IMG/VR virus record: IMGVR_UViG_3300013005_002372
Span: 1-25,647 of that record
Source of the DNA: a virus
DNA length: 25,647 bases
Reading direction: 5' to 3' (one strand)
Numbering within the stretch: position 1 is the first letter of the stretch; the number at the start of each line of letters is the position of its first letter. Positions 2,618 to 23,940 of this stretch are shown here, piece by piece. The notes under the pieces were generated by a model. It was not told where the DNA came from. It did no database searches and was given only the letters and a program-made list of their open reading frames with translations. The position numbers and the translations under genes were made by a program.

Positions 2618-2848
2618 TTAGTTTAAGTGTAACCAATTTAATTTATCATCAGGCATTACTTGTGTATAAACAACTTCTGGTCTGTTTGGAACTGCAAACG
2701 TGACATGGTCATTTACTCCTGAATTTAATTCTAGTAAAACTAGTTCTAATGTTTCCTCATCCACCCAAGGTGAACCATCAATATCTACTACATGGCCTAC
2801 AAAATATTGGCCATCATACTCTTCAAAATCTTCTTTAGTAAAGCTCAT
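2618..2848 (-). CDS. Small acidic hypothetical protein
   Basis: A 76-residue acidic protein with the look of a small beta-barrel or adaptor domain (YFVGHVVDIDG, ELVLLELNSG, HVTFAV). It starts at the ATG at 2848, overlapping the end of the previous gene by 14 bases. Its stop lies 14 bases before the ATG of the 1731 gene. Nothing in the sequence assigns a function. Continuous packing with its neighbours and normal composition support it as real. Confidence 0.65.
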   Translation of the reverse strand: MSFTKEDFEEYDGQYFVGHVVDIDGSPWVDEETLELVLLELNSGVNDHVTFAVPNRPEVVYTQVMPDDKLNWLHLN

Positions 2849-3101
2849 TTAATTTAGTTTTATTGTAAAAAATAGTATCAAACAATCGGTACATATACTT
2901 GTGACCACAATCATCATCATAATCACTATCTTCTTCTACTATAATAGCTGTACCTAAAATTTCTGATAGTTTACCTGTGTTGATTTGATTCCAATACCCA
3001 AATCTAAGATACATGTCATTTGTACCACCCATAACTTGTGAGATATCAAACTCACCTAATTCACTCTCAATTTTCTTTAATACTTCAATACTTAATCTCA
3101 T
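2835..3101 (-). CDS. Hypothetical protein, first gene behind promoter P1
   Basis: An 88-residue protein and the first gene after the promoter at 3125-3151. The leader between the -7 box and ATG contains the palindrome TTATTATATAATAA and then the A-rich start context AAATAAAAGTTATG, typical of Bacteroidota translation starts. The product is acidic in the middle (EEDSDYDDDC, about 57-66) with a helical N-terminus. No conserved motif is recognised. It heads a tightly coupled series of eight genes running to the left edge of the window. Confidence 0.7.
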   Translation of the reverse strand: MRLSIEVLKKIESELGEFDISQVMGGTNDMYLRFGYWNQINTGKLSEILGTAIIVEEDSDYDDDCGHKYMYRLFDTIFYNKTKLNELY

Positions 3102-3124
3102 AACTTTTATTTCTTATTATATAA

Positions 3125-3151
3125 TAAATTTAACTAAATAACCGCGGTCAA
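3125..3151 (-). promoter_or_regulatory. Promoter P1 (TTGACC-N13-TAAATTTA)
   Basis: On the minus strand TTGACC (3151-3146), a 13-base spacer beginning GCGG, then TAAATTTA (3132-3125). The box overlaps a perfect 14-base palindrome, TTATTATATAATAA (3127-3114). A TTTG lies 20 bases before the -7 box, which also fits the Bacteroidota -33/-7 arrangement. The TTGACC follows the stop codon of the 28-codon gene by one base. The same layout recurs at six other places in this window. Confidence 0.75.
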
Positions 3152-3238
3152 TCAAATGTCGTATTGACTCATGATTGCCTCAGTCACGGTCAATTCCGCT
3201 TCAATTAATTCTAGTAAATATTCGTAATCGTTTTCCAT
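3152..3238 (-). CDS. Tiny 28-residue acidic ORF between two promoters
   Basis: An open frame of 28 codons, starting at the ATG at 3238 in the context AAGAAAGTATG and ending in TGA at 3154-3152. The peptide is acidic and helical: it begins MENDYEYLLELIEAE and ends QYDI. It fills the space between promoter P2 (whose box ends 17 bases before the ATG) and promoter P1 (whose -35-like element directly follows its stop), so it appears to be transcribed from P2. It could be a small regulatory or leader peptide, or a small anti-host protein. The evidence is placement, start context and an amphipathic pattern, not homology. Confidence 0.55.
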   Translation of the reverse strand: MENDYEYLLELIEAELTVTEAIMSQYDI

Positions 3239-3255
3239 ACTTTCTTATTATATAA

Positions 3256-3282
3256 TAAAGATAGTGTAGGAGCCGCGGTCAA
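3256..3282 (-). promoter_or_regulatory. Promoter P2 (TTGACC-N13-TATCTTTA)
   Basis: Minus strand TTGACC (3282-3277), a 13-base spacer starting GCGG, TATCTTTA (3263-3256), and the perfect palindrome TTATTATATAATAA (3258-3245). TTTG again stands 20 bases upstream of the box and contains the TGA stop of the preceding gene. It precedes the 28-codon gene and reads on into P1. Confidence 0.75.
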
Positions 3283-3636
3283 TCAAACACAACCGTGTTT
3301 GGATAGTATGGCTTTTAATGATGTAATGTCTTCCTTACTATATGTCTTTTTATTAATACGTTCACATATAGTAGCTGCTTGTTTAATATCTCGTTCAATG
3401 TAAGCGATACGAGCGGTATGGTCACCTGGTTTACGTACCCAGAAATGTACCCTATTCATTAGACAGGTTTTAGTTAAACCTACTAATTTTCTATTTTCAT
3501 TATGTTGTAATTCTTCTTGGTCAATACCTTCACCTAGTACACTACTTAAATCAATGTTGTACTTTTTTAATTCTTGTCCTTTCTTATCATGTCCAAGCAA
3601 TTTGTCTGCAAATTTTTCAAATGGATTTTTAAACAT
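3283..3636 (-). CDS. Hypothetical phage protein
   Basis: A 117-residue basic protein with amphipathic helices. It contains NRVHFWVRKPGDHTARIAYI at about residues 61-80 and a helical C-terminus ending HGCV. It begins at the ATG at 3636, the first start after the terminator at 3689-3725, so it must have its own transcription start or depend on read-through. A TATATTTA box directly follows the terminator T-tract (3683-3676), about 40 bases before this gene. The stop TGA is immediately followed by the TTGACC of promoter P2. No family is recognised. Confidence 0.65.
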   Translation of the reverse strand: MFKNPFEKFADKLLGHDKKGQELKKYNIDLSSVLGEGIDQEELQHNENRKLVGLTKTCLMNRVHFWVRKPGDHTARIAYIERDIKQAATICERINKKTYSKEDITSLKAILSKHGCV

Positions 3637-3688
3637 TGGATTAACATATAAGATGGATTCGTGAATAATAGTTGTCTACTATAAATAT

Positions 3689-3725
3689 AAAAAAAATGCC
3701 CCAACCGTAGAAACGGTCAGGGGGT
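3689..3725 (-). terminator. Intrinsic terminator after the 3753 gene
   Basis: Read on the minus strand: CCCC, a small internal loop, ACCGT, loop TTCT, ACGGT, GGGG, then CA and eight T. The stem pairs five bases (ACCGT/ACGGT) plus four G-C pairs, and the T-run follows directly, the classical rho-independent layout. It lies 28 bases after the stop of the metalloprotease gene. It is the only convincing intrinsic terminator I found in the window. Confidence 0.8.
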
Positions 3726-3752
3726 AATAAAAATTAAAAGTATGAACCTTCT

Positions 3753-4136
3753 TTATTTCATAGCCTCATTCGGGCTGAAAATTTCATAATAACACATCCA
3801 CTTATACTTCCTCTCTATCCTATTCGCTTCACGTTCATGTGGATGATTTTTATAAGAATAAATCTTATCTAATTTATGGTACTCACGTTTTATACTCTGA
3901 TGATAATGAGTAAACTCATGAATTATAGTCCCTATGAACCCCATAAATGTTCTATGCTTTTGTTTGAAAACATGTATTTCATTCTTCCATGGATCATACC
4001 ATCCAGCATATTTCTTACCGGTCCTATGGAATACTAATCTTGGATATGTACCATTAATAGTACTCATCCCAAATGTTTTCTTACACCAATCAAATATCTT
4101 AACAGCGTTTTTCCTATTTATCTCTATTGTGTTCAT
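3753..4136 (-). CDS. SprT-like zinc metalloprotease
   Basis: A 127-residue protein with a zincin signature: HEFTH at residues 73-77 (two His ligands and the catalytic Glu) in a helix preceded by GFIGTII, followed by HPHEREAN (98-105), where E101 or E103 would be the third ligand. The length and the basic N-terminal alpha/beta part fit small SprT-like or WSS1-like phage proteases, a family associated with protein-DNA crosslink processing or host takeover; that role is family knowledge, not shown here. There is no signal peptide, so it acts in the cytoplasm. Its start overlaps the preceding gene by 23 bases, and a terminator follows its stop. The catalytic residues appear intact. Confidence 0.75.
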   Translation of the reverse strand: MNTIEINRKNAVKIFDWCKKTFGMSTINGTYPRLVFHRTGKKYAGWYDPWKNEIHVFKQKHRTFMGFIGTIIHEFTHYHQSIKREYHKLDKIYSYKNHPHEREANRIERKYKWMCYYEIFSPNEAMK

Positions 4137-4422
4137 GGTCTAGTTGTTTTAACATTTTTTGAATTTCAATACATTCCTCAAACATATCGTTTTGAGCAAA
4201 TACATCTAAACAAGTATTTAATGACACAACCCATTGATCACGTTCTAAAATAAATTCAATAACATCGTTTTTTATTTTAGCTACAAACGCTGTAACTTTT
4301 TTACGTCTTCGTTTATCGTTAATCGCTTTATGTATTTGTTTATATATCTCAGTAGATATTAATATGTCTTTATTTTCAATTTTAGACTTAAATTCACTGA
4401 CTGAGTTAAATTCAAATACCAT
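4114..4422 (-). CDS. Hypothetical protein with C-terminal EEC domain, paralogue of the 7396 gene
   Basis: A 102-residue protein whose C-terminal 40 residues resemble those of the 106-residue product of 7396-7716. The shared pattern is an IE-rich strand, then RD-W, a spaced L..C.D.F, then EEC..I and a basic helix. The preceding part, with AI.dK and a V/F strand, also aligns. The N-terminus differs. The predicted fold is a strand followed by two helices carrying two conserved Cys. It starts at the ATG at 4422 in an AT-rich gap after the DUF932 gene. Function unknown; a small adaptor or regulatory protein is a guess only. Confidence 0.7.
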   Translation of the reverse strand: MVFEFNSVSEFKSKIENKDILISTEIYKQIHKAINDKRRRKKVTAFVAKIKNDVIEFILERDQWVVSLNTCLDVFAQNDMFEECIEIQKMLKQLDHEHNRDK

Positions 4423-4454
4423 CTTACATATTTGTATATAAATATTTTATGGTA

Positions 4455-4475
4455 AGGAGTATTAAACATACTCCT
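4455..4475 (-). terminator. Perfect 8-bp hairpin enclosing a stop codon
   Basis: AGGAGTAT, loop GTTTA, ATACTCCT: a perfect inverted repeat on the end of the DUF932 gene, with the gene's TAA spanning the loop and the second arm. No U-tract follows (the next bases are TACCATAAAATATTT), so it may be a weak terminator, an RNA-stability hairpin or an operator rather than a strong stop. Confidence 0.45.
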
Positions 4476-5250
4476 CAACCAATTCCCAAAGCGATTCATT
4501 AATCTTTAAATCCTGGCTAAAGTTCTTAACTGCTCTAGCTTTTCTAATTTTAGCGCCTGATGTATAACTACAACCACCACTAATTAATTTCTCTTGAACT
4601 CGGTTAAACACAACCCATAAGTTATTACCCTCATCCGCAACACGTTCAGGCACTAATAACTCATCTAAATTCACTTTAACACCTTCACCAAAACGGATCG
4701 CAGCTGCTTTTTTAGTGAACGTAGCGATTTGTTTATCACTCAATTCAACGTTTTGCAATTTGTTAATTTTCTCAACTAACCCTGGAAACGATCCAACCGC
4801 TTCACTTACTTTAGTCTGTAATTCCTCAAATGTATAACCCATATGGCGTAATTTAAAATCACCATAATTGGTATCACATACTACTAATCCATTAGAACAT
4901 ACTAATCTAAATAACCCAATTTGGAACTTAAATGAACTCAAACCATCATGGCTATTTGTTAATAGTATTTGAGGAAATACATTATCACCATCCGAACCTT
5001 CAATTACAATATCCGGATTAAAAAACTTAATCATGTGGCGTTGGAACCCTTTAGTACTAGCCTTACGAGCTTTGATTTCAACCGCTTGAACCGGTTTCCA
5101 TCCTAACTCCATCATGTCGCTAATTACTCTATCAGTTGGAATGTGCACGTAGTGTTCACTTAACCCTGACTTTTGTTGTGTTTGGAAAATACTTGGAGCG
5201 TCATGTTTAATTTGCTCCATGGTCAATTCTGTAAATGCTTTCATATTCAT
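4462..5250 (-). CDS. DUF932 phage/plasmid-like protein
   Basis: A 262-residue protein matching the DUF932 family (phage/plasmid-like protein, TIGR03299 type). Diagnostic stretches are NSHDGLSSF, GLFRLVCSNGLVV and the N-terminal ISDMMELGWKP. The family is widespread in phages and plasmids and its biochemical role is not established; it is sometimes found near recombination genes. The start at the ATG at 5250 follows the leader AAAAGTTATG, and an internal ATG two codons on is also possible. It is the first gene behind promoter P3 and is followed by the 4114 and 3753 genes before the terminator, making a clear three-gene unit. No membrane segment is seen. Confidence 0.85.
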   Translation of the reverse strand: MNMKAFTELTMEQIKHDAPSIFQTQQKSGLSEHYVHIPTDRVISDMMELGWKPVQAVEIKARKASTKGFQRHMIKFFNPDIVIEGSDGDNVFPQILLTNSHDGLSSFKFQIGLFRLVCSNGLVVCDTNYGDFKLRHMGYTFEELQTKVSEAVGSFPGLVEKINKLQNVELSDKQIATFTKKAAAIRFGEGVKVNLDELLVPERVADEGNNLWVVFNRVQEKLISGGCSYTSGAKIRKARAVKNFSQDLKINESLWELVEEYV

Positions 5251-5273
5251 AACTTTTTATTTTTATTATATAA

Positions 5274-5300
5274 TAAATTTACATTACAAACCGGGGTCAA
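5274..5300 (-). promoter_or_regulatory. Promoter P3 (TTGACC-N13-TAAATTTA)
   Basis: Minus strand TTGACC (5300-5295), a 13-base spacer beginning CCGG, TAAATTTA (5281-5274), and the palindrome TTATTATATAATAA (5276-5263). The thioredoxin stop TAG is one base upstream of TTGACC. It drives the DUF932 gene. Confidence 0.75.
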
Positions 5301-6310: not shown

Positions 6311-6328
6311 AACCTTAATTTTATATAA

Positions 6329-6355
6329 TAAATATAATAATTGGTTTACGGTCAG
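6329..6355 (-). promoter_or_regulatory. Promoter P4 (CTGACC-N13-TATATTTA)
   Basis: Minus strand CTGACC (6355-6350), a 13-base spacer, TATATTTA (6336-6329), followed by TTATATAAAA, a decayed version of the palindrome seen at P1-P3. The TGA within CTGACC is itself the stop codon of the upstream HNH-like gene. Confidence 0.65.
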
Positions 6356-16781: not shown

Positions 16782-16976
16782 TTATTGTTGACTGCCTGAT
16801 AGAGCTAAATTAGTGTGGTTATGTATTTCTTTTCTAAATTCTTCATTAGTTAAGTATGAATGTATACTTCTATCTACTAATTTTTGAAGTGAGAACTTTG
16901 TTCTAACACACATCACTTTAAATTCTTCAAACAAGTCTTCGTTTACTTTTACGCTTGTTAATTTGTTGTCTCCCAT
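16782..16976 (-). CDS. Ribbon-helix-helix DNA-binding protein
   Basis: A 64-residue protein of the Arc/CopG (ribbon-helix-helix) type: an N-terminal beta strand (NKLTSVKVNEDLFEEF), helix 1, a turn (TKFSLQ), helix 2 (KLVDRSIHSYL) and a short polar tail. Dimers insert the strand in the DNA major groove. It heads the glycosylation cassette, directly after an AT-rich gap containing a TATATTTA box, so control of that cassette or of phage promoters is an attractive but unproven role. The size is typical for phage RHH regulators. Confidence 0.72.
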   Translation of the reverse strand: MGDNKLTSVKVNEDLFEEFKVMCVRTKFSLQKLVDRSIHSYLTNEEFRKEIHNHTNLALSGSQQ

Positions 16977-20990: not shown

Positions 20991-21725
20991 TTATTTAATT
21001 AATACTTCTCCATCTAATAATTCTATTTCCCAAGGCATATTTGTTGGATCATAACTTAAAGTACAAATACTAGCGTTAACATAAGTTGTATGCTCATCAT
21101 AATCAGTATCATGTCCTTCATGAATATGTCCTGATATGTGAAGTTTAGGTTTAATAAAGTTAATTGCTTTTCTTAAATCTTCACATCCAACATATTGTCT
21201 ATCATAAACTGTAAAGTCTAATTTATAAGCTACAGGACCATGAGTGACAACTATATCAGTATCTGTTGGAATTGCTTCCCATACTTCTTTAATTTCATCT
21301 CCTCTATACTTATTAAACGCCCATCTGTCACCATGAAACCAAGGTGTGATAGGTGAACCCCAAATATTAATACCGTTTATATTAATTGAGCTGTTTTCAA
21401 GATAATGTATATTGCCACTAGATTGGATATTAGATAAAATATCAACCACCCACGTCGGTTTAGTTTTTTGATTATTTTCATAGTTAAATTTTGGATCGAA
21501 TGAACGATCGTGATTACCAGCAATAAACACTACTCCATAAGTGTAGTTAGGTGCTACCATTTGTAACCACTCAATAAAGTCTTCCACTTCACCTTTTTTA
21601 CCTGTACTTGAAAAATCACCAGCATGGATAAGTAAATCACCATAAGGTAAATTATTAGGGAAATTAGCGTTACTAGTTAAACGCTCATGAAAACCATGAG
21701 TATCTGATATTGCTACTATTTTCAT
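20991..21725 (-). CDS. Calcineurin-like metallophosphoesterase
   Basis: A 244-residue metal-dependent phosphoesterase. All family motifs are present: D8-x-H10 (AISDTHGF), GD near residue 37 (IHAGDF), GNHD (FIAGNHDRSF), H in VVTHGPV and GHIHEGH near the end. These coordinate two metals and could hydrolyse a phosphodiester or phosphate; the substrate is not predictable from sequence. The ATG lies four bases after the P5 TATATTTA box, predicting a leaderless transcript that continues through the clamp-loader genes. The residues appear intact. Confidence 0.88.
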   Translation of the reverse strand: MKIVAISDTHGFHERLTSNANFPNNLPYGDLLIHAGDFSSTGKKGEVEDFIEWLQMVAPNYTYGVVFIAGNHDRSFDPKFNYENNQKTKPTWVVDILSNIQSSGNIHYLENSSININGINIWGSPITPWFHGDRWAFNKYRGDEIKEVWEAIPTDTDIVVTHGPVAYKLDFTVYDRQYVGCEDLRKAINFIKPKLHISGHIHEGHDTDYDEHTTYVNASICTLSYDPTNMPWEIELLDGEVLIK

Positions 21726-21729
21726 ATAT

Positions 21730-21756
21730 TAAATATATTATTGTTTCCCCGGTCAA
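21730..21756 (-). promoter_or_regulatory. Promoter P5 (TTGACC-N13-TATATTTA)
   Basis: Minus strand TTGACC (21756-21751), a 13-base spacer beginning GGGG, TATATTTA (21737-21730), then ATAT and the ATG of the metallophosphoesterase gene. The upstream gene's TAA directly abuts TTGACC. It is the probable promoter for the replication operon. Confidence 0.72.
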
Positions 21757-22893: not shown

Positions 22894-23124
22894 TTATTTA
22901 TTAAAATTAAAAAATTTATTTTTATAAGCATCCATTTCACCCTTAGTTCTTGGTTTTGATTCAATACGTCCAACTACTTTAGCTTTCCGTCCTCGTGGTT
23001 TACCTTGGTAGTCACCTTCATTATCAGCACCCCAATTAGTGTCCCTAACTGTTTTATAAAACGCTTCCATGATTCGTTTCCTATATTCAGGATCGTTTTT
23101 TGGATATACTGGCTGTAAATTCAT
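22894..23124 (-). CDS. Small basic hypothetical protein
   Basis: A 76-residue basic, poorly ordered protein: RKRIMEAFYKTVRDTNWGA, then a glycine/lysine-rich segment QGKPRGRKAKVVG, and a final aromatic helix. It could bind nucleic acid or be an assembly or packaging accessory; no motif supports either. The ATG at 23124 is four bases after promoter P7's TATATTTA box, so translation may be leaderless. It is followed by the coiled-coil gene after three bases. Confidence 0.6.
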   Translation of the reverse strand: MNLQPVYPKNDPEYRKRIMEAFYKTVRDTNWGADNEGDYQGKPRGRKAKVVGRIESKPRTKGEMDAYKNKFFNFNK

Positions 23125-23128
23125 GGAC

Positions 23129-23155
23129 TAAATATAGTCTATTAGTCTAGGTCAT
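23129..23155 (-). promoter_or_regulatory. Promoter P7 (ATGACC-N13-TATATTTA)
   Basis: Minus strand ATGACC (23155-23150), 13 bases, TATATTTA (23136-23129), then GTCC and ATG. The -35-like element lies in the last codons of the small membrane gene 23142-23282, whose stop follows it by six bases. Confidence 0.6.
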
Positions 23156-23422: not shown

Positions 23423-23910
23423 CTTTGAATGTTTTGTTCTAGTATTTTAAATAATAATTTATGTGCTCGTTCTTCATTTATCTTAGCGATATTAAATGCT
23501 ATTTTTTCTTTAGATGCTTTTAAATCAGGAACCATTCTATATACTAATGGGTACTTTTTAAAGTAATCAACATAGTGTTCTGAGATGTATTCTATTTCCA
23601 TTTCATAACTGCCAGGATGAGACTCACTAGGAATAAATTTTAATTCTGATTCATGATAGTCAAAGTATTCTCTTCCATAATATCCATCTTGTACTTTATC
23701 TATTAGACGAGTACATAACATCATTATTTCAGCATCACGTTTAGCCCCAATATATCTGTTTTTACTACCAATATATTCAGCTTGATTCTTTAATTTGAAT
23801 TTAAGTATTTCATAGATATAAGAATGATCCCAATCTTGATCTCTCCATATGATTGGAGCCCAACGATATAAGTTGTATATGCGTTGGAAAAAATGTTTGA
23901 GTTTATACAT
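23410..23910 (-). CDS. Hypothetical phage protein with Trp/Arg motif
   Basis: A 166-residue protein. The region YRWAPIIWRDQDWDHSYIYE (about 15-34) and EILKFKLKNQAEYI resemble, from memory, a family of conserved proteins in many tailed phages with an R-x-W-x-x-D-x-D-W-D start. It is helical with a positive tail ending QRWWD, and has no membrane segment. The ATG lies four bases after the P6 box TATATTTA. The role is unknown; some related proteins have been named only as hypothetical. Confidence 0.7.
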   Translation of the reverse strand: MYKLKHFFQRIYNLYRWAPIIWRDQDWDHSYIYEILKFKLKNQAEYIGSKNRYIGAKRDAEIMMLCTRLIDKVQDGYYGREYFDYHESELKFIPSESHPGSYEMEIEYISEHYVDYFKKYPLVYRMVPDLKASKEKIAFNIAKINEERAHKLLFKILEQNIQRWWD

Positions 23911-23914
23911 ATCC

Positions 23915-23940
23915 TAAATATAATGAATTATTTAGGTCAA
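23915..23940 (-). promoter_or_regulatory. Promoter P6 (TTGACC-N12-TATATTTA)
   Basis: Minus strand TTGACC (23940-23935), 12 bases, TATATTTA (23922-23915), then GGAT and ATG. One base shorter than the other spacers. It lies seven bases after the stop of the secreted nuclease gene. Confidence 0.6.

Follow-up and report, generated by a model that had tools for sequence, protein, structure and literature searches.

Three promoters in what is probably a fragment of a phage genome carry the same perfect 14-bp palindrome across their predicted start sites, which raises the question of whether it is an operator or part of the promoter itself. The window, meaning the whole stretch of 25,647 bases analyzed here, is IMG/VR virus record IMGVR_UViG_3300013005_002372, and its minus strand carries 45 of 45 genes (greedy ORF set). 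An initial annotation proposed either role and named a ribbon-helix-helix (RHH) protein as candidate ligand. As it reported, the palindrome TTATTATATAATAA is exact at 3114–3127, 3245–3258, and 5263–5276, and the window has no further copy. Read on the minus strand, each copy shares the last three bases of a -7 box and lies behind GACC-N13-TA(AA/TC)TTTA, such that all three sites read GACC-N13-TA(AA/TC)TTTATTATATAATAA. Features of these and four further promoters (P1–P7) are as follows.

3114..3127, minus strand: P1 palindrome TTATTATATAATAA, exact match; predicted to span -7 to +7, predicted +1 at 3120
3125..3132, minus strand: P1 -7 box TAAATTTA
3146..3149, minus strand: P1 GACC element, inside TTTGATTGACCGCGG
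2835..3101, minus strand: 88-aa ORF behind P1, no Pfam or PHROG match at E 0.001
3245..3258, minus strand: P2 palindrome, exact match; predicted +1 at 3251
3256..3263, minus strand: P2 -7 box TATCTTTA
3277..3280, minus strand: P2 GACC element
3152..3238, minus strand: 28-aa ORF behind P2 (MENDYEYLLELIEAELTVTEAIMSQYDI), its stop overlapping the P1 -33 region
5263..5276, minus strand: P3 palindrome, exact match; predicted +1 at 5269
5274..5281, minus strand: P3 -7 box TAAATTTA
5295..5298, minus strand: P3 GACC element
4462..5250, minus strand: DUF932 gene behind P3 (PF06067, 1.2e-28)
6318..6331, minus strand: P4 nonpalindromic version, tail TTATATAAAATTAAGG, 2 mismatches
6329..6336, minus strand: P4 -7 box TATATTTA
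6350..6353, minus strand: P4 GACC element
21726..21754, minus strand: P5, GACC-N13-TATATTTA-ATAT, ATG from 21725; without palindrome, predicted leaderless
23911..23938, minus strand: P6, GACC-N12-TATATTTA-GGAT, ATG from 23910; without palindrome, predicted leaderless
23125..23153, minus strand: P7, GACC-N13-TATATTTA-GTCC, ATG from 23124; without palindrome, predicted leaderless
16782..16976, minus strand: RHH-like protein of 64 aa, the candidate ligand of the initial annotation; no Pfam or PHROG match at E 0.001

The window was compared with 16 relatives (among them G001–G011, G013–G015, and Flavobacterium phage immuto), for a set of 17 records. In an annotated phage collection, the nearest match of the window's DUF932 gene is in immuto (45% identity), a cultured relative with a 160-kb genome and annotations that include T4-type Gp20 and Gp23. 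The relatives found to be nearer than immuto are IMG/VR contigs; environmental contigs, possibly incomplete, make up 15 of the 16 relatives, and contigs G001–G011 were recruited by a pattern that includes the palindrome. The 28-aa ORF behind P2 has orthologs in G001 (96%) and in G002 and G003 (86%). The relationship to immuto and the type of -7 box suggest that the host is probably a member of the Bacteroidota.

Chance occurrence in AT-rich DNA is ruled out by shuffles and by the register of the copies. When the window was shuffled by Markov models of orders 1, 3, and 5 (300 shuffles each), TTATTATATAATAA averaged 0.003–0.01 copies and three were reached in 0 of 900. One perfect 14-bp palindrome by itself is not very remarkable, with eight places in the window having some such palindrome and shuffles averaging 3.6 (at most 9), but one and the same palindrome occurring three times is. 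The signal resides in exact copies because matches with up to three mismatches are no commoner than chance (25 in the window vs. 26.9).

The 17 records hold 40 copies, in the window and in 12 relatives, all at the same place behind GACC-N13-TAnnTTTA, with the last TTA of the box forming the first TTA of the palindrome (40/40). The fixed offset seen in the window is thus general. G013, G014, G015, and immuto have no copies. The register check covered 16 records in full, and none has a copy outside promoter context; G015 was counted for the palindrome alone (none). The initial annotation would have been refuted by a palindrome frequent in nonpromoter DNA, and the counts show no such frequency. 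Fourteen copies match the pattern used to recruit G001–G011, and the 26 that do not are all in the same register (hand count). Searches of IMG/VR with GACC-N{8,18}-TAnnTTTATTATATAATAA returned a spacer of exactly 13 in 59 of 59 matches, and with a sister tail in 46 of 52 (hand counts from match lengths). Copies are not independent since many of them, and many of the IMG/VR matches, are orthologs in related contigs. The same composite yielded eight matches in a GTDB collection of 84,980 species, and their spacers (8, 8, 11, 12, 13, 14, 14, and 18) have the look of chance. None of these eight has a Bacteroidota title that would point to a host origin of the composite, one being a MAG titled just "bacterium."

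The palindrome is one form of a broader promoter class. The GACC element is usually within TTGACC or CTGACC, and sister promoters bear ATTATAAATAA, TTGTATAATAA, or GTTATAAATAA in place of the palindrome. The fully read near contigs hold 90 distinct GACC promoters; of these, 37 are palindromic, and in 75 the box is followed by TATAA at a distance of 2–3 nt. Palindromes are found with the AA and TC variants of the box (37 of 51) and never with TA (0 of 37), a link that a plain extended promoter leaves unexplained. Between copies, spacer identity is 0.24–0.30 in the window, G001, G002, and G003, compared with 0.29 for random sequence (tail identity is 1.0, a result of how the sites were selected). 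Recent copying of whole promoters is therefore unlikely in these four records, as spacers are at background; G005, with a spacer identity of 0.71, remains compatible with it.

Orthologs do not preserve the dyad symmetry itself. Of 26 distinct regions upstream of orthologs of the genes behind P1–P4 (protein identity of 55% or higher), all 26 retain GACC and TAHHTTTA and eight retain the palindrome (P1, 2/4; P2, 4/4; P3, 2/10; P4, 0/8). Retention of GACC was assessed within the clade only, and some of its contigs were recruited by GACC patterns, so the 26 of 26 is favored. The count leaves out three subjects whose match starts after residue 20 and one whose upstream stretch is too short. P3 already reads TTGTATAATAA in the nearest relative (95% protein identity). 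Below 55% identity, the palindrome and the GACC promoter are absent in 68 of 68 upstream regions (P1, 1; P3, 60; P4, 7), indicating that the entire promoter form is clade specific, and a TAHHTTTA box is present in 20 of them. P4 had been described as carrying a decayed copy. It has two mismatches, but given that none of its eight orthologous regions is palindromic, it looks like a separate version rather than a product of decay.

Of 58 distinct sites that differ from the palindrome by at most three substitutions, 37 are exact; in the others, changes are one-sided in 42 cases and two-sided in none. These counts speak mainly against a hairpin or cruciform; as a test of an operator they are weak because half-sites need not covary. 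Left and right halves are associated beyond what tail swapping yields (mean dyad of 6.08 vs. 5.64; reached in 0 of 200 shuffles), which an extended promoter does not explain. Without exact palindromes, the association is not clear, with 13 of 200 shuffles reaching the observed value.

Immuto provides a parallel. Its whole genome has no palindrome and no GACC-N13 promoter; at 31 sites, GTTG stands 20 bases ahead of TAHHTTTA. Of the 31, 15 run on as G(G/A)TATCAATAATTAAAA, a nonpalindromic tail, and each of the 15 copies of TATCAATAATTAAAA that immuto has is directly behind a box. With a different tail at the same place, the place is conserved and the sequence is lineage specific.

In Flavobacterium johnsoniae, the -7 element TAHHTTTG is at -12 to -5 and probable starts are 4–5 nt farther on (PMC6847099). 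Applying a 4-nt rule puts the predicted +1 on an A at 3120, 3251, and 5269, which is the dyad axis, and places the palindrome from -7 to +7. That the predicted start should fall exactly on the axis is a suspicious coincidence that would count against an extended promoter. Distances from box to ATG peak at 4–5 nt (14 of 87), with 1 of 87 at 6–13 nt and the remainder longer (window and G001–G011, orthologs included); such a peak is expected if transcription begins there and fits the predicted start. An RNA hairpin is rejected because half of the palindrome, a single arm, would be transcribed from the predicted start and leaders fold at energies near zero (0, -1.3, and 0 kcal/mol for P1–P3).

We suggest, with good confidence, that the palindrome belongs to a phage promoter for the host polymerase that reads -33 and -7 elements, one that a lineage-specific stretch between -4 and about +7 extends. 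The promoter would consist of GACC, a 13-base spacer, a Bacteroidota-type -7 box of the form TA(AA/TC/TA)TTTA, and a lineage-specific tail from about -4 to +7. The commonest tail in the clade is TTATATAATAA, and a palindrome arises where TTATATAATAA abuts the TTA of the box. The host primary-sigma RNA polymerase is predicted to read the GACC/-33 region and the -7 box, since Sigma70_r2 had no match in the 16 relatives (15 of them possibly incomplete contigs; the control matched in 10 of 14 genomes). As in F. johnsoniae, transcription would start 4–5 nt past the box. Strand opening may be eased by the all-A/T sequence between about -8 and +7, and the first transcribed bases together with the A-rich leader may favor translation without a Shine-Dalgarno sequence. 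The tail may optimize opening and the first transcribed bases, and can be compared with the additional consensus regions that T4 early promoters have (PMC2988021). The T4 parallel and a succession of small ORFs having promoters of their own make it likely that these promoters would be used early in infection. If the palindrome is part of such a promoter, changes that break symmetry and spare TATAATAA are predicted to matter less than changes to the box.

A dimeric repressor or activator of host or phage origin, for example the RHH protein, might instead bind the palindrome over the start and block or time initiation at some promoters. We consider this quite unlikely, even though perfect symmetry at 37 of the 90 distinct promoters, the association of halves, and the intact P2 regions (4/4) favor it. 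The palindrome is lost in 18 of 26 orthologous regions while the promoter stays intact, is confined to promoter context in the 16 full records, and has a nonpalindromic counterpart in the sister lineage (immuto). Relatives of the RHH-like protein are present in 7 of 16 records, namely all four without palindromes (identity of 84% in G013 and 59% in G014, G015, and immuto, the immuto protein also aligning at 61% over 59 residues) and 3 of the 12 with them, which are fragments. The gene was not found in nine palindrome-bearing records, all IMG/VR contigs of less than 48 kb. Its N-terminal KLTSVKV stretch, which from the general RHH fold we take to be the would-be DNA-contacting strand, is identical in immuto. 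An operator bound by the RHH protein is thus rejected as the main explanation, given relatives that have the protein and no palindrome and the loss of symmetry in orthologs. On present evidence, the predicted RHH-like protein does not appear to be part of the promoter system, and the initial annotation's choice of ligand is not upheld. Of the two roles it offered, the extended element is borne out by copies locked to one architecture next to spacers at background identity (except in G005); the operator is not supported, with symmetry kept in 8 of 26 orthologous regions and 37 of 90 distinct sister promoters.

Other explanations attribute the tail to different readers. It may be a per-lineage signature of the start site that runs from -4 into the leader (TTATATAATAA here, GGTATCAATAATTAAAA in immuto) and is read by a coevolving phage factor or a phage-altered polymerase; we regard this as rather unlikely, and if true, phage promoters would be picked over host promoters by sequence at and after the start. 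Constraint may alternatively act on the RNA, with AUAAUAA at the start and an A-rich leader serving a RegA-type translational regulator or stability and with symmetry being incidental. Continuation of the conserved tail into the A-rich leader is consistent with such a tag, as is the finding that many DUF932 orthologs, down to 45–50% identity, end in AAAGTTATG or AAGGTTATG. The conserved part, however, starts upstream of the predicted start, and we think a leader tag quite improbable; a search for the RegA family had no match in 16 records, and its control was likewise without match. Very unlikely, in our estimation, is a symmetric promoter at which the palindrome lets polymerase start on both strands and send antisense RNA into the upstream gene. 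Bacterial promoters that are bidirectional through sequence symmetry are described in the abstracts of PMC10268837 and PMC12825309, and 6 of 40 palindromic sites have a TATTTTTA box at the mirrored position of the opposite strand. At the other 34, a mirrored opposite-strand TAHHTTTA box is missing, and on that strand GACC at spacer 13 is absent from all six sites.

An extended promoter for the host polymerase, the explanation we favor, belongs to a class that is clade specific, fixed in architecture, and located upstream of genes. Combining GACC with a start-site tail, the class provides candidate strong promoters and indicates where transcripts are likely to start in relatives of Immutovirus. 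It also suggests that a start-site sequence can be constant throughout one lineage but replaced by a different one in another. A literature search limited to titles and the opening lines of abstracts, and a weak negative, found no description of promoter motifs in Bacteroidota phages, and promoters of lytic Bacteroidota phages seem little described.

Compared with Bacteroidota primary-sigma promoters (PMC6847099), the promoters here are alike in the TAHHTTT of the -7 box (its two middle bases lack G in 89 of 90 distinct sites), and their distances from box to ATG fit a start 4–5 nt downstream. They differ from the TAHHTTTG described there at the last base of the box, which is A: of 113 sites found when TTT[AG] was permitted behind GACC, 1 has the G of the consensus. 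In relation to the -33 TTTG given in that source, immuto promoters have TTG 20 nt upstream of the box. Of 90 distinct sites in the clade, 34 have TTG at -35 to -33, and 78 have the TTG or CTG of the GACC element at -31 to -29. To the host pattern, the phage adds GACC at a fixed 13-base spacer and a strongly conserved start-site tail.

Among phage systems, the closest likenesses are with T4 (PMC2988021). T4 middle promoters have a MotA box 12 ± 1 bp upstream of the -10 element and are alike in having a fixed phage-specific element near -30, which here a 13-bp spacer separates from the box. GACC, however, is no MotA box, and MotA_activ had no match in 16 records, with the control likewise without match. 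T4 early promoters, in the same source, are alike in apparently being phage promoters for the host polymerase with conservation beyond the core elements; they differ in their sigma elements, and the start-site tail described here varies between lineages.

Three GACC promoters on the minus strand of the window (21723-21737, 23122-23136 and 23908-23922) have an ATG exactly 4 nt past the -7 box, a spacing from which leaderless mRNAs are predicted. Across the window and the related contigs G001-G011, orthologs included, the box-to-ATG distance is 4-5 nt in 14 of 87 cases. Upstream of many orthologs of the DUF932 gene (window 4462..5250, minus strand), down to 45-50% identity, the leader ends in AAAGTTATG or AAGGTTATG, a recurrent start context without a Shine-Dalgarno sequence.

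One short reading frame has a promoter of its own, P2, which carries the start-site palindrome at 3245-3258:

3152-3238, minus strand, 28-aa ORF behind P2

Orthologs are found at the same place in three related contigs (G001, G002 and G003), with identities of 86-96%, and the ORF may encode a small protein.

On the strand opposite the palindrome, TATTTTTA occupies the mirrored place at window 5258-5276 and at five sites in G002, G003 and G005. At these six palindrome sites, the mirrored sequence possibly marks an antisense start.

Variants of the -7 box and the start-site tail are paired in the promoters of G001-G013: tails such as ATTATAAATAA accompany box TATATTTA, and boxes TAAATTTA and TATCTTTA are mostly followed by tail TTATATAATAA. 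In the cultured relative, Flavobacterium phage immuto (NC_055915, 67.6-73.9 kb), 15 nonpalindromic start-site tails, TATCAATAATTAAAA, each lie directly behind a -7 box. Hand comparison with the annotation places the beginning of an annotated plus-strand CDS just after 14 of these 15 tails.
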